A stretch of 64,000 bases of DNA from Rhodospirillales bacterium (GTDB lineage: Bacteria > Pseudomonadota > Alphaproteobacteria > TMED109): NCBI GenBank assembly GCA_028824295.1, contig JAPPED010000003.1:1-64000 (forward strand), in the 5' to 3' direction. Positions 16,073 to 30,245 of this stretch are shown here, piece after piece. Each line of letters begins with the position of its first letter. The stretch's first letter is position 1. Under the pieces are notes generated by a model. It saw only the letters and a program-made list of their open reading frames with translations. It was not told the DNA's origin and did not search any database. A program made the position numbers and the translations under genes.

Positions 16073-16900
16073 TCAGGTGCAGCCAGCGCGCTCACTGCCA
16101 ATGGCCGCTCGGTCGAGGATTCGCTTTGACGCGTCTGGAAAGTCCAAACCAAGGCGGCGGAACGCTTCGCACGCGTCGTCGTTCTTGCCCAGAGCGATTA
16201 ACGAAAGCCCCAGCTTGAGAAGGATGTCAGGTGCCTTCTGCTTGTCTGGGGCACTTCGAAACCCGCGCGCGAACTCGGCGGCAGCCTCCGCGTACTGTTC
16301 ACGAACATAGTGGCTCTCGCCAAGCCAGTAATACGCGTTGTCGGTCAAGGTGCCGTTTGGGTATCTGCGAATGAAGTCCCGGAAGGCTGTCTCTGCGGCC
16401 GGATAATCCGCCCTGACCAGCAATTCGTAGGCCTGCCTGTAACTGATTTCCTCGTCATCAAACTGCGTGGCCGTCACAGGTCCGGCCCCTGCCGTAGGCG
16501 ATCCTGACGGTGGCTCCTGCGCCACCGTGTTCTCGGTTTCGGGCCCCGCGCCGACAACTGGCACTGGAGGTACGGTGTCGGCCGTCGGTGCCGACACCGG
16601 CGGGGGCAGCACGTCACTGGATGCCGCCTGTGTCTCCTCCAATTGTCGAAGCTGCCGGTGAAGCTGATCGAGCAAGTGCCGGTTTTCTTCCATCCTGCCG
16701 GTCACGGTGCGCAAAGAGTCTTCAAGCTCCTGGAGTCGCCGCTCTTGGCGCGCGATCGCCTCGGTCTGCCGTGAGAGGGCCTCGAGCCTGGTTTCCAGTG
16801 CGCCAAGCCGTTCGTCACCGGCCTCCTGTGCAACGGCAGGAATCGCAACAATGCTGCCGCACAGGGCCGCGGTTACAAATGCTGCAGCACGCCCGATCAC
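16073..16900 (-). CDS. cpoB: Cell division coordinator CpoB (YbgF), TPR protein
   Basis: This periplasmic protein couples the Tol-Pal machine to peptidoglycan synthesis. The signal peptide ends at IPAVAQ. An N-terminal coiled-coil trimerisation segment follows (about residues 30-90), then a Pro-rich linker. The C-terminal TPR domain has the usual YRQAYELLVRADYPAAETAF and NAYYWLGESHY repeats. The start is GTG at 16900, which overlaps the pal stop as GTGA and places the signal peptide exactly at the N-terminus; the longer frame would add residues that overlap pal. Confidence 0.92.
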   Translation of the reverse strand: MIGRAAAFVTAALCGSIVAIPAVAQEAGDERLGALETRLEALSRQTEAIARQERRLQELEDSLRTVTGRMEENRHLLDQLHRQLRQLEETQAASSDVLPPPVSAPTADTVPPVPVVGAGPETENTVAQEPPSGSPTAGAGPVTATQFDDEEISYRQAYELLVRADYPAAETAFRDFIRRYPNGTLTDNAYYWLGESHYVREQYAEAAAEFARGFRSAPDKQKAPDILLKLGLSLIALGKNDDACEAFRRLGLDFPDASKRILDRAAIGSERAGCT

Positions 16901-17448
16901 GGATTGATTACGGTGATTGCCACCCGGTTTTGGCGCCAAGCCTGTTCGTTGTGGCCCTCGACTTCCGGTCGCTCCTTGCCATAGGAGATCGTCGAAATTC
17001 GGGTCGCCTCTACTCCGAGTGATACGAGGTAGGTCTTGACGGCTTCGGCCCGACGTTCGCCAAGCGCAATGTTGTATTCCCGGGTACCGCGTTCATCACA
17101 ATGCCCCTCGATCGTGACGGTCACAGCCGGCGCACCCAGCAAGAGTTCGCTCTGCGCACGGAGAATTGCCTCACCCTCAGCACCAAAGGAACTCTTGTCG
17201 TAGTCAAAATAGACTCGGTCGCCGGCTTCGATCAGGTCGACTTCGGCTTGCTCGGCGGGAGTCAATTGCGTCACCCCCGCGGTCTCATCGGTTTCGACGT
17301 CGATGCCGCCGTCAGTGATATCGGCGAGTCCAGTTCCCTCCACGACCTCCGCCGGTTCGGCGGTGGGATCTTGTTCGGGGGGGCTGCCGCAGGCCGAAAG
17401 TGCCAGCGCGATGCCGAGGGCCGCAAGAATGTGGATAGGCCGATGCAT
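16897..17448 (-). CDS. pal: Peptidoglycan-associated lipoprotein Pal
   Basis: Pal anchors the outer membrane to peptidoglycan in the Tol-Pal system. The 183-residue precursor has a lipoprotein signal with lipobox LSAC, a short acidic linker, and an OmpA-like domain (YFDYDKSSF..., IEGHCDERGTREYN, LGERRAEAV, YGKERP). The ATG at 17448 is chosen because the lipobox follows at the right distance. In most alphaproteobacteria tolB precedes pal; here the gene upstream is an unrelated plus-strand dioxygenase, so pal appears to lead this operon. Confidence 0.95.
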   Translation of the reverse strand: MHRPIHILAALGIALALSACGSPPEQDPTAEPAEVVEGTGLADITDGGIDVETDETAGVTQLTPAEQAEVDLIEAGDRVYFDYDKSSFGAEGEAILRAQSELLLGAPAVTVTIEGHCDERGTREYNIALGERRAEAVKTYLVSLGVEATRISTISYGKERPEVEGHNEQAWRQNRVAITVINP

Positions 17449-17914
17449 TACTGTGTTCCAGATAACAGATGAGGCAGCCGCCGAGAGTACGGACGAACAG
17501 GCGTACAAAATCAGCCGCCGGTTCGAGGGACTCGACTGAGCATTCAGTACGATAAAAGAAAAGTAGGGTGTCCACAACGATGGGAACAGTATTCCGGCAG
17601 CGAACGGCGGTCGTGAAGCGTGCCGTACCGCAACCTCGCCCCGACGCTCGTTGTGGCGGCTTCGTTTCGGTCGGTGGATCCTGTTCCTCGAGCCGCTTGA
17701 TGGAGCCTGATGGGGTCGCTGACGATCGATCCAGTTCGGCGAATACGGAGTGGTCGCTTGAGATCTCGGGTCCCATATTGCGGGCGTTGGGACTGTTGGT
17801 ACAGAAGCGACTTCGTGGGCCAGGTGCTGACGCGGGTGCCCGGCGTAGACTCAAGAGCAATGAGCGCGGATTGACTGCGCTACGGCAACCAGACGCCATC
17901 GGGGAGGCTGGGCC
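17449..17914. other. Intergenic region between pal and the PhyH dioxygenase gene
   Basis: About 470 bases with no supported gene; the open frames here are unlike any protein I know. It holds the divergent promoters, including a candidate for pal. There is no trace of tolB. Confidence 0.6.
17549..17577 (-). promoter_or_regulatory. Promoter candidate for the pal-cpoB-tilS-ftsH-folP operon
   Basis: On the minus strand TTGTGG (17577-17572) and TATCGT (17554-17549) are separated by 17 bases, within an AT-richer patch about 100 bases upstream of the pal ATG. Spacing is ideal; the boxes match the consensus moderately. Confidence 0.4.
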
Positions 17915-22529: not shown

Positions 22530-25265
22530 TCATGGCCGGGTAAGTTTTAGTTCGATCCGCCGGTTACGACGGAGTGCCGCCGGATTGGTTTCCGGGTCTA
22601 TCGGTTGGAACTCCGCGAAACCCGCAATCGAAAGCCTCTCGGGAGGCATCCCATTGTCAAGGAGGATACGGGCGACCGCAGTGGCCCGTGCGACCGACAA
22701 CTCCCAATTGGAGGGAAACTGGTCGGTAGCAATCGGGTCAGTGTCGGTATGTCCCTCGATTTGAAGAACCCATGGTACGTCGTCGGGAATTTCCCCAGCG
22801 AGGACCTTCAAAGCGTCAGAGACCTGGGTGATTTCGCGCCGACCGTTCGGCCCAATTTCCGCGGAACCGCTGGCGAACAGCACTTCGGACTGAAAGATGA
22901 AGCGATCGCCCACGATCCTTACATCCGAGCGGTCGCCAAGGATGTCGCGGAGTCGTCCGAAGAATTCGGACCGATAACGCGCCAGCTCACTGACCCTGGT
23001 GGCCAAGGCCGCATTGAGGCGCTTGCCGAGCTCGACAATCTGGATTCCCTTGGCTTCACGGTCGGCCTCGGCCGCGTCCAGAAGCCGTCCGAGTTCATCC
23101 AGCCTGGCGCGTACGTCGGCCAACTGGCGGTTCAGCAAGGTCGCCTGCTCCCTTGCTGCGACCGAAAGCGCGCGCTCCTGTTCCAGGTCTGCTTCCGTCT
23201 GCAATAGGTCCGTTCGGGCTGCTGCTGCCGCCGCCGCGAGTTCGGCCAGTCGTTCTTCCAGCCGTTCCTTGTCGAGCTCCAGGTTTCTGGCCTGGTCAGA
23301 CAGGCCTTGCTCCGAAGACCGAACGCGGCTGAGGTTCGCACGCAGTGCCTGCTCGCTGCCACGCAGCCGTTCGATCTCGTCCCGTAGTTCTGTTTCCTGT
23401 GCCTGCGCCTCACCGAGCGACCGCCGCAGCGTCCTGACCTCGGATGACAGGTCCCGGTTGCGTGTCTGCAGGCCGGTTTCCAGGGTGCCCGCTTCTTCAA
23501 GTTCCCGGGTAAGTTGCTGGAGGTCGGTGGTCAATTGCTCATTCGTCGTCTGGAGGTTCAATCCCAGCGCTTCAGCGGCCTCGAGCGAGAGCGTGAGCTC
23601 CTGAAAATCTGCACTCAGCACATCGTTCTCGCCCCTTAGTTCACTGCTGCGCGCCTCAGCAATCTCAAGTGCCCGCGTGAGTTCCAGAAGTTCGGCGGAC
23701 AGCGATTCGTTCTGGGTCCGGAGCTCGTCTCCGCGACTCCGGGTTTCGGCCAGAGCGCGCGAGAGCCGCTGGATGTCGACGTCGAGAGCTTCATTGGCGG
23801 CCTGCAGGTCGTCGCCACGGGTTTCCGCGGCGGCGAGAGACTGCGACAGGCGCGTGACGTCGGCATTGAGGCCTTCGTTTTCCGTCTGGAGGTCGTCGCC
23901 ACGAGTTTCGGCCGCAGCCAGAGCCTGCGCCAGTCGCTGGATGCTGGCGTGGAGGTCTTCGTTTTCTGCTTGGAGGTCGTTGCCGCGAGTTTCGGCGGCG
24001 GCGAAAGCCTCGGTAAGCTGCCTGACGTTGTCCTCAAGCGATTGATTCCGCGCTTGCAGGTCCTCGCCGTGCGTGTTGGCCGTTTCCAGGGCGCGCCGAA
24101 GCTGCAGGATGTCGCGAGCCAGTAGCTCGTTTGTGTTCTGTAACTCGTTGCCGTGGCGCTGTGCTGCTTCCAGCGCAGCGGTCAACTGCCGGATGTTGGC
24201 GTTGAGGCCCTCGTTCTCGTTTCGAAGTTCATTGCCGCGAGCTTCGGCCTCCCCGAGTGACTGTGAGAGCTGACGAACGTCCACAACAAGGGTTTCGTTC
24301 TGGACCAGAAGGTCGTCACCACGGGTCTCGGCGCTCATCAGCGCTTGTGCCAACCGTTGGACCTCGGCATCGAGGGATTCGCTTTCCGTCTGCAGCTCGT
24401 CGCCGCGCATCCGCGCCGCCGCCAGTTCCTGTGTGAGCTGTTCGACCTGCGTATCGAGAGCCTCGCCCCGGGTCTGAAGGTCATCGCCCCTGGTGCGGGC
24501 CGTCGCGAGGTCTTGCGTCAATCGCTGAACGTCGGCATCCAAGGCCTGATTCCGGGCTTGGAGATCATCGCCGCGGGTCTGTGCCGTCGCCAAGTCTCGT
24601 GTCAGCCGTTGAACGTCGGTGTCGAGGGCCTGATTCCGGGCCTGGAGGTCATCGCCGCGGGTCTGTGCTGTCGCCAGTTTCTGCGTGAGCTGCGTCACAT
24701 CTTCGGAAAGAGAATCGTTTTGGTTCTTCAGGTCTGCAGCGAGCGTCTCGGTTTCCTGTACCAGCTGTGTGAGTCGTCGGACATCTGCCGCAAGCGCGTC
24801 ATTCTGGGCTTGTCGATTTGCAGCAACGGTTTCGGCTGCCGCGAGCGACTGTGTGAGCTCGCGGACCTGGAGAGTCAGCTGCTCGTTTCTCGTCTCCAGG
24901 TCTTGCCCGAGGGCTTCAGCAGCCTGAAGCGACTCGGTGAGGAGTCGGACTTCATCGCTGAGGCGAACGTTGGCTCCACGCAGGTTGCTGACTTGAGCCT
25001 TGGAGTCATTGAGCGATTGGGTGAGATCGAGGACATTCTCGGACAATTCGGCGTTCTGGGTTTCCTCCCGGGCAAGTTGCGCTGTCAGCGCATCCATCTG
25101 TGAGGTCAGTGACTGCAGTTCCGCATCCCGCCCCTTTAGCAGCAACCCCAGCACAAACTCGGACAGGACATAGATCGCAAGCAGAAAAACGAGGACGAGC
25201 AGTAATGTTGAGATACCGTCGACAAAGCCCGGCCAGATGTTGGGAGATTGGCGTCGCGTGGGCAC
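22530..25265 (-). CDS. MotB/OmpA-like peptidoglycan-binding protein with giant periplasmic coiled coil
   Basis: The 911-residue protein has one N-terminal membrane helix (about 17-43). Asp16, in PGFVDGIST, sits where MotB, TolR and ZorB carry their proton-binding Asp. A coiled coil follows from about residue 46 to 765. Its core, residues 66-625, is twenty consecutive 28-residue (four-heptad) units with no indels. The C-terminal 140 residues form an OmpA-like peptidoglycan-binding domain (FIFQSEVLFASGSAEI, IEGHTDTDPI, LSVARATAVARIL, RRNRRIELKL). GTG start, nine bases after the MotA-like gene. Known MotB or TolR proteins are 140-350 residues, so this is several times longer. It is not flagellar: no flagellar genes are nearby. 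The function is unknown. Confidence 0.88.
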   Translation of the reverse strand: MPTRRQSPNIWPGFVDGISTLLLVLVFLLAIYVLSEFVLGLLLKGRDAELQSLTSQMDALTAQLAREETQNAELSENVLDLTQSLNDSKAQVSNLRGANVRLSDEVRLLTESLQAAEALGQDLETRNEQLTLQVRELTQSLAAAETVAANRQAQNDALAADVRRLTQLVQETETLAADLKNQNDSLSEDVTQLTQKLATAQTRGDDLQARNQALDTDVQRLTRDLATAQTRGDDLQARNQALDADVQRLTQDLATARTRGDDLQTRGEALDTQVEQLTQELAAARMRGDELQTESESLDAEVQRLAQALMSAETRGDDLLVQNETLVVDVRQLSQSLGEAEARGNELRNENEGLNANIRQLTAALEAAQRHGNELQNTNELLARDILQLRRALETANTHGEDLQARNQSLEDNVRQLTEAFAAAETRGNDLQAENEDLHASIQRLAQALAAAETRGDDLQTENEGLNADVTRLSQSLAAAETRGDDLQAANEALDVDIQRLSRALAETRSRGDELRTQNESLSAELLELTRALEIAEARSSELRGENDVLSADFQELTLSLEAAEALGLNLQTTNEQLTTDLQQLTRELEEAGTLETGLQTRNRDLSSEVRTLRRSLGEAQAQETELRDEIERLRGSEQALRANLSRVRSSEQGLSDQARNLELDKERLEERLAELAAAAAAARTDLLQTEADLEQERALSVAAREQATLLNRQLADVRARLDELGRLLDAAEADREAKGIQIVELGKRLNAALATRVSELARYRSEFFGRLRDILGDRSDVRIVGDRFIFQSEVLFASGSAEIGPNGRREITQVSDALKVLAGEIPDDVPWVLQIEGHTDTDPIATDQFPSNWELSVARATAVARILLDNGMPPERLSIAGFAEFQPIDPETNPAALRRNRRIELKLTRP
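23391..25070 (-). repeat. Twenty tandem 84-bp units encoding 28-residue coiled-coil repeats
   Basis: Each unit follows the pattern DLQxxNxxLxxDVxxLTxxLAxAxTRGD and is exactly 84 bp; I aligned all twenty by eye without a gap. Units at 24567-24650 and 24483-24566 are almost identical (DLQARNQALDTD/DLQARNQALDAD), which suggests recent duplication. Outer units are more diverged. A 21st, weaker unit may follow at 23307-23390. Confidence 0.92.
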
Positions 25266-25274
25266 GCCGCAGGC

Positions 25275-26489
25275 TCAGCGCTTGGACCGCGCCTGATCGG
25301 TACTGCGCGACTTTGCCTCGGGCTTGGCTGCTGCCGAGGAAGTGCGTCGCGTCGTTTTCGAAGTAACCCTGGTCGGTTTGGACTCCGGCACGGAAGTACT
25401 CAGGGTGCGTGCGAGCAGCTTGATTTCGCCGCGCACGCCTTGGAGAAAAGCCTCCTGACCGGCGGCGTTCGCTTCGACCAAGCGCTTGAGGTTGGAATCC
25501 ATGCTGCGCAGATGCGCCAAGGAGTGTTCGTCAAGATTGCCGCCAGTGTCGGCGATGCGTTCAATCTGCCGAACAATGGACGACTGATCGCTTCGCAGCT
25601 GATCTCCGAGGGCCGCAATCTGGGTGGCGATCGAGGACATCGACTCGCTGACGTTGCGACGTTCATTCTCTCCCCTGACCAGCGCTTTCTGGAGTTCATC
25701 GATGCTTTCCGCAGTCTGCTCAAGCAGCGCCTGCACGTAGACCGGAACCGGAGTGTGTCCCAGCTCCAACTCGCTGCCGCTCCCTGCAGAAACGTGTGCC
25801 CGGCGAGCAAGCCACTCTTCAAGATCTAGGTAGAAGCGATTCTGTGCCTGGGCAACCTGCAGGTCGAGGAAACCAAGGACCAGCGAGCCCGCAAGTCCGA
25901 ACAGCGACGAGCTGAACGCAGTACCCATGCCAGCCAGAGGCTCGGTCAGCCCCGCCTTCAATGATCCGAAGATCGACGCGACGTCCCCGCCTTCACTGAT
26001 CGAGAGATTGCCGATGACGGCGCCGAACGAGCTAACCGTCTGGAGCAGCCCCCAGAACGTCCCCAACAACCCCAGGAAGATCAGTAGCCCGATCATGTAG
26101 CGGGAAATGTCGCGGGTCTCGTCCAGCCGAAAGTTCACCTGGTCGAGCAGCGAGCGCATGGAGAGCGCGGAGATCAGCGGTCGCGACGTCTTGGTCTGTT
26201 CGGTGAACGTGCGCGCAATCGGGGCAAGCAGATTTGGCGGCCGCGCGTTGGCGATACTGACACTCATGCCAGACGCGTAGCGCTCCAGCCAGCGGATTTC
26301 GGGAACCAGCGCCAGGACCTGGCGAAACGAGTACGCAATTCCGATTACCAGCACGCCTGCGATAAGCCCGTTGAGCGCCGGATTGGCGTTAAACGCCTCC
26401 CTGAGCGTAGGCAGCAGCAGCGATGCCAGGCCGCCGGACACCACGACGAACACGACCATGCGAATCAGGAATCGGTGGGGGCTATGCAC
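25275..26489 (-). CDS. MotA/TolQ/ExbB-family proton-channel protein
   Basis: The 404-residue inner-membrane protein has four predicted membrane helices (about 8-28, 40-60, 131-152 and 186-210). The last two carry the MotA/ExbB signature: GLLIFLGLLGTFWGLLQTV and EPLAGMGTAFSSSLFGLAGSLVLGF. It is paired with the MotB-like gene nine bases downstream, so together they should form an ion-driven motor (a pentamer around a dimer in known relatives). The cytoplasmic C-terminus (211-404) is long, helical, and ends in about 35 residues rich in Lys, Arg, Ser and Thr. GTG at 26489 has a GGGA upstream; ATG at 26459 is an alternative. Target unknown. Confidence 0.88.
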   Translation of the reverse strand: MHSPHRFLIRMVVFVVVSGGLASLLLPTLREAFNANPALNGLIAGVLVIGIAYSFRQVLALVPEIRWLERYASGMSVSIANARPPNLLAPIARTFTEQTKTSRPLISALSMRSLLDQVNFRLDETRDISRYMIGLLIFLGLLGTFWGLLQTVSSFGAVIGNLSISEGGDVASIFGSLKAGLTEPLAGMGTAFSSSLFGLAGSLVLGFLDLQVAQAQNRFYLDLEEWLARRAHVSAGSGSELELGHTPVPVYVQALLEQTAESIDELQKALVRGENERRNVSESMSSIATQIAALGDQLRSDQSSIVRQIERIADTGGNLDEHSLAHLRSMDSNLKRLVEANAAGQEAFLQGVRGEIKLLARTLSTSVPESKPTRVTSKTTRRTSSAAAKPEAKSRSTDQARSKR

Positions 26490-26849: not shown

Positions 26850-27650
26850 TCAGACTTGTCGGTCAGCCTCCGCCAAGCAGTCTTGAAGAGCAATCGCGAT
26901 GTCGGGAGTACCGGCCACCACATCTCCCGTGATCAGCGGACAGGAATTCCTGCGCAGCCCGACGACTGAACCGCCTGCTTCGGTCACACACAGCATGCCC
27001 CCTGCGATGTCCCAAGGGTTCAGGCCAGTCTCCCAGTACCCGTCGATCCGGCCGGACGCTACGTAGCACAGGTCGAGCGCAGCGGCACCGAACCGGCGAA
27101 GTCCGGCCACTCGCTGCATGATCTGACGCTGGCGGGAAAGATGCAGGTCGTGTGCCCCGCGACTCCTGTGCGGCAGACCAAGTGCGATCACCGCTCCGTC
27201 AAGGGTGGAGCGCGGCGTGATGCGGAGACGGCGGTCGTTCACGTAGGCGCCGCGGCCTTTTTCTGCCCAGTAGGCTTCGTGCTTGATGGGATCGAGTACG
27301 AATGCACCGACGATTGTGCCCGCTCGTTCCAGGGCGATCGAAATTGCGAAGTGCGGTATCCCCCGCAGGAAATTCAGGGTTCCGTCAACCGGGTCGACGA
27401 TCCACCGGTGTTCGCCGTCGCCCGCCTCCTCCAGGCCTTCCTCCATGAGAAAACCGTAGCCGGGCCGCGCGCGCGAAAGTTCGCGGTGCAAGATTTCCTG
27501 GGTTCGTATGTCTGCGGATGTAACGAAGTTGTCGGGCCCCTTGAGAGAGACCTGGAGGTTTTCGATTTCGCCGAAATCACGGCGGAGCGGGCGGGCCGCC
27601 TTCTCGGCAGCGCCTGACATGACGTTGATGATGGCAGTCGGATAGGGCAC
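26850..27650 (-). CDS. suhB: Inositol monophosphatase family protein (SuhB-like)
   Basis: This Mg-dependent phosphatase has the family signatures GFLMEEG (metal Glu near residue 70), WIVDPVDGTLNFLRGIP (metal Asp86 and Asp89) and GLNPWDIAGG. Length (266) is normal. SuhB relatives dephosphorylate inositol phosphates and, in enterobacteria, also act on rRNA antitermination; which role applies here is unknown. GTG at 27650. It lies 19 bases after efp, an arrangement I associate with alphaproteobacteria. Confidence 0.9.
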   Translation of the reverse strand: MPYPTAIINVMSGAAEKAARPLRRDFGEIENLQVSLKGPDNFVTSADIRTQEILHRELSRARPGYGFLMEEGLEEAGDGEHRWIVDPVDGTLNFLRGIPHFAISIALERAGTIVGAFVLDPIKHEAYWAEKGRGAYVNDRRLRITPRSTLDGAVIALGLPHRSRGAHDLHLSRQRQIMQRVAGLRRFGAAALDLCYVASGRIDGYWETGLNPWDIAGGMLCVTEAGGSVVGLRRNSCPLITGDVVAGTPDIAIALQDCLAEADRQV

Positions 27651-27668: not shown

Positions 27669-28235
27669 CTACGACTTGGCTCGTTCTACGTATGCCCCGT
27701 CGAGCGTGTTGACCACGACGCGGGTGCCGGTTTCCACGTGCGGCGGCACCATGGTCCGAACACCGTTGTCAAGCACGGCAGGTTTGAATGAGCTCGAGGC
27801 GGTCTGGCCCTTGACAACGGCTTCGGTCTCCGTGACGACCGCAACCGCAGTGTCCGGGAGCCGGATCGCGACCGGCTTGTCCCCCGCGTACTCGACCGTG
27901 ACATCCATGCCGTCCTGCAGGAAAGGCAGGGCATCGCCGACCATGGCTGCTGGAAACTCCGTCTGGTCATAGGTCGTCGTGTCCATGAGCGTGACGGTGC
28001 TCCCGTCGCCGAAAAGGTACTGATATGCGCGGCCTTCAATGTACAGCCGTTCCAGGTTTTCCGCGGCGCGAAACCGCTCGTTCAACTTGCTGCCGTTTTC
28101 GAGGTTGCGCAGTTCCAGCTGGGCATAGGCGCCACCCTTGCCTGTCCGGACCGCCTGCTTCCGTACCACGCGCCAGATGCTGCCCAAGTGTTCAATCACC
28201 ATGCCGGGGCTGGCTTCGTTTCCCTTGATGCGCAT
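27669..28235 (-). CDS. efp: Translation elongation factor P
   Basis: EF-P rescues ribosomes stalled at polyproline. The 188-residue protein starts MRIKGNEASPGMVI and has the three OB/KOW-like domains. The modifiable Lys33 sits in VRTGKGGAYAQ, with Thr rather than Pro two residues before it. I did not see an epmA or epmB gene in the window. The C-terminal domain has the usual TGTRVVVNTLDGAYVERAK. The ATG at 28235 is chosen by homology; the longer frame overlaps the divergent gloB promoter. Confidence 0.95.
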   Translation of the reverse strand: MRIKGNEASPGMVIEHLGSIWRVVRKQAVRTGKGGAYAQLELRNLENGSKLNERFRAAENLERLYIEGRAYQYLFGDGSTVTLMDTTTYDQTEFPAAMVGDALPFLQDGMDVTVEYAGDKPVAIRLPDTAVAVVTETEAVVKGQTASSSFKPAVLDNGVRTMVPPHVETGTRVVVNTLDGAYVERAKS

Positions 28236-29616: not shown

Positions 29617-29865
29617 ATGGGAATGCAGTACACGATCCGTTCCGTCCCCGAGGCGGTCGACCGCGCCGTGCGCCACCGCGCCAGACGCGAAGACAAGAGC
29701 ATCAACGCTGTGGTTGTCGAGGCGCTCGCTCGCGGCCTGCAGCTTGACTCCGGCGCCACCGAGTACACGGACCTTGATCATCTAGTCGGCACTTGGCAGG
29801 AAGACCCGGCGTTCGATCACGCCATCGCCGACTTCGAGCGCGTCGACGGCGACGCCTGGAAGTGA
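29617..29865 (+). CDS. vapB: VapB-type antitoxin, ribbon-helix-helix
   Basis: The 82-residue protein begins MGMQYTIRSVPEAVDRAVRHRA. The N-terminal strand plus two helices (KSINAVVVEALARGL) is a typical RHH/Arc DNA-binding fold of antitoxins. The acidic C-terminus (GTWQEDPAFDHAIADFERVD) would wrap the toxin active site. Translation may start at ATG 29617 or 29623; neither has a good ribosome binding site, and the mRNA leader would be only a few bases. The stop overlaps the toxin GTG. Confidence 0.8.
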   Translation: MGMQYTIRSVPEAVDRAVRHRARREDKSINAVVVEALARGLQLDSGATEYTDLDHLVGTWQEDPAFDHAIADFERVDGDAWK

Positions 29866-30245
29866 ACGTCGCACTCGACACCAACGCGTACAGCGACTTC
29901 ATGCGCGGCAAGGATGAACGGGTCCGGGTCGTCCGCGCGGCGCGTTCGATTGCGCTGCCCCTCATCGTGCTCGGCGAGCTTCGCGCGGGCTTCGCCGCCG
30001 CCGACCGTGAGTCGGCCAACGCGGCCAACCTGCAGCGGTTTCTGGCGAGCTCGCGGGTGTCAGTCCTCTTGCCGGACGAGCAGACCGCCCACCACTATGC
30101 GCAGCTCCACCTTCAACTCCGGACCAAGGGTGCTGCCATTCCGACGAACGATCTCTGGATCGCCTCCCTCACGGTGCAGCACGACCTGGTTCTGTGCACC
30201 TCCGATCGCCACTTCGACCACTTGCCACAACTTGTCACCTGTTGA
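29862..30245 (+). CDS. vapC: VapC-type PIN-domain toxin ribonuclease
   Basis: The 127-residue PIN protein starts with GTG overlapping the antitoxin stop as GTGA. The acidic active site is complete: Asp6 (ALDTNAY), Glu39 (VLGELRAGF), Asp97 (TNDLWIAS) and Asp115/Asp119 (CTSDRHFDHLP). The layout is that of FitB/VapC toxins that cleave tRNA or other RNAs when the antitoxin is degraded. With intact catalytic residues and coupling, the module looks functional. It sits in an accessory stretch between gloB and pntB. Confidence 0.88.
   Translation: MNVALDTNAYSDFMRGKDERVRVVRAARSIALPLIVLGELRAGFAAADRESANAANLQRFLASSRVSVLLPDEQTAHHYAQLHLQLRTKGAAIPTNDLWIASLTVQHDLVLCTSDRHFDHLPQLVTC

Follow-up and report, generated by a model that had tools for sequence, protein, structure and literature searches.

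How would a putative motor whose wall-binding subunit carries a rod of about 107 nm fit into a cell envelope whose periplasm usually measures 20-30 nm? This question is raised by two neighbouring genes in a stretch of 64,000 nucleotides (nt), hereafter the window, from a Rhodospirillales bacterium (assembly GCA_028824295.1, contig JAPPED010000003.1, positions 1 to 64,000). Gene A (25275..26489) encodes a protein of 404 amino acids (aa) with a MotA/TolQ/ExbB fold and gene B (22530..25265) a MotB-like protein of 911 aa. Both reading frames are open, begin with GTG and are separated by 9 nt; they lie on the minus strand, as do all further features of the window unless stated otherwise. A preliminary description made from the sequence alone, whose coordinates and residues for A and B all proved correct, had left the rod to fold back, to lie along the wall or to do something other than reach straight to peptidoglycan. 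Comparison of B among relatives indicates that its rod grew and shrank almost only by steps that preserve an unbroken coiled coil. With moderate confidence, we propose that the A-B pair is a non-flagellar, ion-driven A5B2 housekeeping motor of the envelope, anchored to the wall by a continuous shaft of ~107 nm that would lie nearly flat.

Architecture and length of the B rod

B starts with a transmembrane helix (around residues 14-43; 25137..25226) that is conserved in relatives and carries, within the motif WPGFVD, the candidate ion-binding residue Asp16 (codon 25218..25220). All 209 distinct N-termini collected by profile search have this residue, although strongly diverged forms without Asp could have escaped a profile derived from sequences that carry it. 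At the other end stands an OmpA/MotB-type peptidoglycan-binding domain (residues 796-902; 22560..22880; Pfam OmpA, 60.8 bits) with MotS, MotB and PomB as nearest solved relatives. The intervening coiled coil of ~720 residues is uninterrupted: its heptad phase stays the same between residue 37 and about residue 727, it contains no proline between residues 44 and 770, and it shows a hydrophobic periodicity sharp at exactly 3.5 residues (power 13.7, neighbouring periods at most 0.22). The MotB-like parts named in the preliminary description were thus all recovered, and its rod of roughly 100 nm came out at ~107-109 nm, several times the usual envelope depth (~736 residues from the end of the transmembrane helix to the start of the OmpA domain, at 0.1485 nm per residue).

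The coil comprises 20 tandem repeats of 28 residues (84 bp), four heptads each (residues 69-628; 23382..25061), and a remaining, unrepeated part recognised by its core hydrophobicity (residues 629-765; 22971..23381). Each unit has Leu (once Ala) at d and Val or Leu at two a positions, with Gly usual at a third a. Asn occupies one core a position in 18 of the 20 units and, Asn at core a being a mark of parallel coiled-coil dimers, B is expected to form a parallel dimer. The preliminary description overlooked this repeat, as it did the nearby Pal and CpoB genes and a third, OmpA-like gene of many relatives, which are treated below.

Homologue lengths were surveyed in 186 distinct proteins by counting the residues between two conserved anchors, the WPG motif and, within the OmpA domain, DRFxFQ. 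These anchors were 164-832 residues apart, corresponding to estimated rods of 18-118 nm with a median of 32 nm, compared with ~107 nm in the window. Taken modulo 7, the distances fell into seven classes of 134, 25, 23, 2, 1, 1 and 0 members. The three large classes represent whole heptads, a surplus of four residues (stutter) and a surplus of three (stammer), the latter two being the classic ways in which a coiled coil departs from the heptad without breaking. At period 7, chi-square per degree of freedom was 88.9, against 1.6-4.2 at periods that are not multiples of 7; the quantisation persisted after redundancy filtering to 48 sequences of less than 65% identity, and the control distances (third-gene linker and A tail) showed none. 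Among 61 disjoint nearest-relative pairs of unequal length, 37 differed by a multiple of 7 (8.7 expected) and 3 fell outside 0 or ±3 or 4 modulo 7 (34.9 expected), with binomial P values of ~1e-16 and ~3e-18, respectively. Heptad-quantised lengths are also found in PadC phytochrome-cyclases, where linker lengths are set apart by whole multiples of seven or by a constant -4 (PMC9587094); those linkers are short and signalling, whereas the B rod is highly variable.

The ion-site Asp fell at position b of the coil in 186 of 186 proteins, the register at the C-terminal end stood in a constant relation to the OmpA anchor in 184 of them, and in the three large classes the shift between both ends equalled the length class. 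In the E. coli MotB dimer, too, the published register puts the Asp (D32) at b, and A31 at a (PMC10659934). Taken together, these sequence comparisons favour a parallel rod that runs without interruption between the ion site and the wall domain over a folded bundle or hairpin, since the turns of the latter would accept insertions and deletions of any size. Quantisation and register locking thus disfavour folding back, and of the options considered earlier, a rod lying along the wall was left standing.

Within the genus of the window, the six members in which the B gene could be read to its end, the window among them, had anchor distances of 748, 748, 776, 776, 776 and 832 residues, stepping by exactly 28; in a seventh, the assembly ends within the repeat, and it was left out of this measurement. 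Repeat expansion is probably a feature of this genus alone, because B proteins in sister genera of the same taxonomic family measure 352-376 aa. Ratios of nonsynonymous to synonymous substitution rates (dN/dS) in the genus were 0.05-0.07 for the coil core, 0.10-0.19 for the coil surface and 0.03-0.07 for the OmpA domain. The coil is under purifying selection, strong at the core, and with 20 repeat copies kept in the genus under low dN/dS it is not a product of chance.

Two seemingly longer homologues were not counted. An 837-aa frame in genome G184 was really a 492-aa B with upstream read-through, and a 1276-aa open reading frame in G015:C23 was a different protein sharing only the C-terminal module of B. 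The latter (L067; G015:C23:1-4434, minus strand) joins Sel1-like repeats to this coil/OmpA module and has no membrane helix.

The A protein and comparison with known motors

The Pfam model MotA_ExbB gave 20-23.6 bits on A and passed its cut-off (23.6 vs 22.9) only with neighbours in the frame. A profile search of the PDB with A returned only coiled-coil look-alikes and was replaced by fold comparison. The predicted structure of A, confident in its core, matched TolQ, ExbB, ZorA and MotA over residues 24-244 (Foldseek E 2.4e-4 to 1e-2, prob 1.00; VIA Z 8-12). The earlier label 'MotA-like' therefore holds for a motor-like membrane protein, but the fold is that of TolQ/ExbB/ZorA/MotA in general and not of MotA in particular. 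Residues T144 and S195 were invariant in 57 proteins. Alignment and model further showed a helical cytoplasmic tail (residues 250-365; 25395..25742) that ends in a conserved EIKLLART motif. Most relatives stop just past this motif; a basic C-terminal extension of ~30 residues (25275-25376) is present in the window genus only.

B belongs to NCBIfam NF006543 (PRK09039; 380.8 bits, cut-off 305), a family labelled 'peptidoglycan-binding protein' and named without a function, in agreement with the preliminary description, which knew of no assigned one. The family model is 350 aa long, whereas the window B has 911 aa with its 20 repeats. Matches over cut-off occurred in 168 of 289 genomes of a class-wide sample of Alphaproteobacteria. 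Our literature searches found no functional study of this family, and a paper on Rgs/Tol-Pal in Sinorhizobium contains no mention of MotA, ExbB or OmpA. The A family is almost limited to Alphaproteobacteria, with few strong matches elsewhere in the phylum, and B adjoined A in 230 of 232 loci.

The A-B pair is not a stator of the flagellum, because FliG is absent here and in many bearers: searches for FliG_C found none in the window's own genome, none in six other genus members and none in 20 of the 35 B bearers examined, single-contig genomes included. Models of MotB/MotD/MotS type gave 48-102 bits on B and stayed below their cut-offs of 250-312. Both results bear out the non-flagellar character proposed earlier. 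With MotAB/PomAB the pair shares the register of the transmembrane helix around the Asp and an OmpA domain closest to MotS/MotB/PomB; unlike there, a continuous coil replaces plug and linker in B, and A bears an extra helical tail.

By its domain content the pair also falls outside the Tol/Exb systems. It shares with TolQR/ExbBD the fold of A, but their B subunits carry PF02472 (ExbD/TolR) rather than OmpA. No PF02472 partner was found at the A-B locus; in this genome the domain occurred only at C12 and C3:170 kb, and both systems exist separately. At the latter site (L002; G000:C3 ~170 kb), a TonB-dependent receptor gene is followed by exbB and two exbD-like genes.

The closest functional parallel is ZorAB. 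Like A-B, ZorA5B2 combines an ion-motor core with a helical cytoplasmic tail on the A subunit and a wall domain of OmpA type on the B subunit. Its function depends on the wall-binding domain, the ion residue and the A tail, and its authors proposed that wall binding pulls on ZorB and thereby opens the channel (PMC11890865). There, however, the long part is the cytoplasmic ZorA tail and ZorB is short, whereas here it is the periplasmic B, and the locus is probably not a defence locus. ZorA profiles gave 11-17 bits on A, with NCBIfam cut-offs of 100-750. ZorC-G effectors were not among the identified neighbours (efp, inositol monophosphatase and biotin-carboxylase genes), the effector models not having been run on every open reading frame of the window. 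Judged by profile and identified neighbours, the pair is not Zorya. In the 5:2 motor GldLM, the B subunit GldM forms a long and rigid shaft of 18 nm in the periplasm; this shaft consists of folded domains, unlike the B rod, and is not described as peptidoglycan-binding (PMC9389320). According to a recent survey, OmpA-type wall domains are missing from the B subunits of non-flagellar motors (PMC12505986); the A-B pair, common in Alphaproteobacteria, is a counter-example to this statement.

Proposed mechanism and alternatives

In the mechanism we propose, A and B would form an A5B2 assembly of the MotAB/ZorAB/ExbBD superfamily type, in which, by analogy with the superfamily, the two B helices would serve as axle and wall anchor and ions would pass by Asp16. 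The A ring would turn around the B dimer and move the conserved helical cytoplasmic tail of A, the putative output. Conservation of Asp16, T144 and S195 is compatible with an active 5:2 ion motor on a single-chain prediction. Tandem duplication of a four-heptad unit would have lengthened the rod to ~107 nm in the window genus. A stiff rod of this length would have to take a small angle to the wall in a periplasm of 20-30 nm; it would lie nearly flat between inner membrane and wall and anchor the motor to peptidoglycan up to ~100 nm off. As the length changes that survive nearly all keep the register, the rod probably works as a mechanical link that transmits tension or twist between wall and channel, not as a loose spacer.

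Several points weigh against this picture. Ion flow, rotation, oligomeric state and peptidoglycan binding are predicted or inferred features, and a periplasm of 20-30 nm is an assumption for these uncultured cells. The uniform register at the Asp end stems from shared ancestry, so that the 186 cases are not independent and only the match with MotB is (chance about 1 in 7); that agreement, together with the repeated restoration of the register after many independent length changes, does not come from ancestry. A stays at ~380 aa throughout while rods vary about five-fold, and any surplus length may be tolerated rather than put to use. The full-length AlphaFold2 model of B was unreliable, with a predicted local distance difference test score (pLDDT) of 65 and a predicted template modelling score of 0.27, and broke the helix near residues 200-235, 368-386 and 567-625. 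Such breaks would suit a coil folded back as hairpin or bundle, for which the paradox is gone. However, pLDDT was below 50 at these breaks and the core hydrophobic pattern passes through them; residues 44-770 are free of proline, turns would tolerate indels of any size where lengths are quantised modulo 7, and the register at both ends fits a continuous rod. We regard folding back as very improbable.

The main rival reading is that rod length is near-neutral above a floor, with in-frame, heptad-keeping duplications piling up without a function for the extra length. The shortest rods (~18 nm) are enough to reach peptidoglycan, the distribution is open-ended with a long upper tail (median 32 nm, maximum 118 nm), close relatives often differ in rod length and the size of A does not track it. 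Strong purifying selection on the coil core, however, and the 748-832 residues kept between anchors in all genus members measured to the end speak against it, and we consider it unlikely, if a serious contender. Only a slim chance is given to a rod that spans an unusually deep periplasm and acts as an envelope ruler. Rod length does vary by lineage, and a review proposed that periplasm thickness may explain the spread of MotB lengths (PMC9389320); but TolA of the same genome has an ordinary size (321 aa), though Tol-Pal must bridge the envelope too, and the 352-376-residue B proteins occur in sister genera of the same family. A Zorya-like anti-phage sensor seems highly improbable. The nearest defence profiles were indeed ZorA (45.7 bits) and ZorB3 (73 bits), and weak A matches outside the class were mostly proteins of 700-1100 aa, similar in size to long-tailed ZorA, but the NCBIfam ZorA cut-offs were missed by far, and the conserved place beside efp, the identified neighbours and the broad presence across Alphaproteobacteria do not fit. 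As a more daring extension of the flat-lying shaft, which we think quite unlikely, the rod might be a register-locked torsion bar along the wall, carrying twist or tension over ~100 nm, with rods packing side by side via the 28-residue repeat into a periplasmic motor array. A 28-residue repeat length is known from myosin rods as well.

For non-flagellar ion motors, discovery outpaces explanation. With its quantised length and locked register, the rod offers a natural experiment on how far wall anchoring can be parted from the motor, and makes the question whether the anchor carries force directly testable.

Gene neighbourhood and a third gene in relatives

Upstream of A lie a gene of the inositol monophosphatase family (26850..27650; Pfam Inositol_P, 185 bits) and efp, for elongation factor P (27669..28235; TIGR00038, 196 bits over cut-off). 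Both are conserved neighbours: among the 75 loci with 5 kb of upstream sequence, the former was near A in 63 and efp in 56, the latter in line with what the preliminary description said of related pairs. The claim that no Tol genes are adjacent held for the immediate neighbours; ~5 kb downstream of B, however, stand a Pal lipoprotein gene (16897-17577; TIGR02802, 133.9 bits) and a CpoB/YbgF-like gene (16073-16939). This same OmpA-domain gene (Pal) was also close to the A-B pair in the other genus members open to checking. The tol-pal cluster is split in this genome, with Pal and CpoB/YbgF-like genes near B (16073-17577) and tolQ-tolR-tolA on another contig (L001).

Directly upstream of A, 88 loci encode an exported protein rich in Pro and Ala whose C-terminal domain is OmpA-like; its gene separates A from the inositol monophosphatase gene (e.g. 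L118:740-2125, L104:8984-9961). This third gene was not found in the window genome or five other genus members searched, while four positive-control relatives scored. Its product is a candidate partner of A-B, possibly lost where the rod is longest. Median rod length was 335 residues without and 272 with the gene, these being raw medians that ignore ancestry. We claim no causal tie between loss and rod length, because two short-rod sister genera are also without the gene. At L084:2457-5876, the third-gene frame reaches 1140 codons in a genome whose B rod is long too (490 residues between anchors). Elsewhere in the window, an open reading frame on the plus strand (29793-30245) resembles, from its sequence, a PIN-domain toxin of VapC type.

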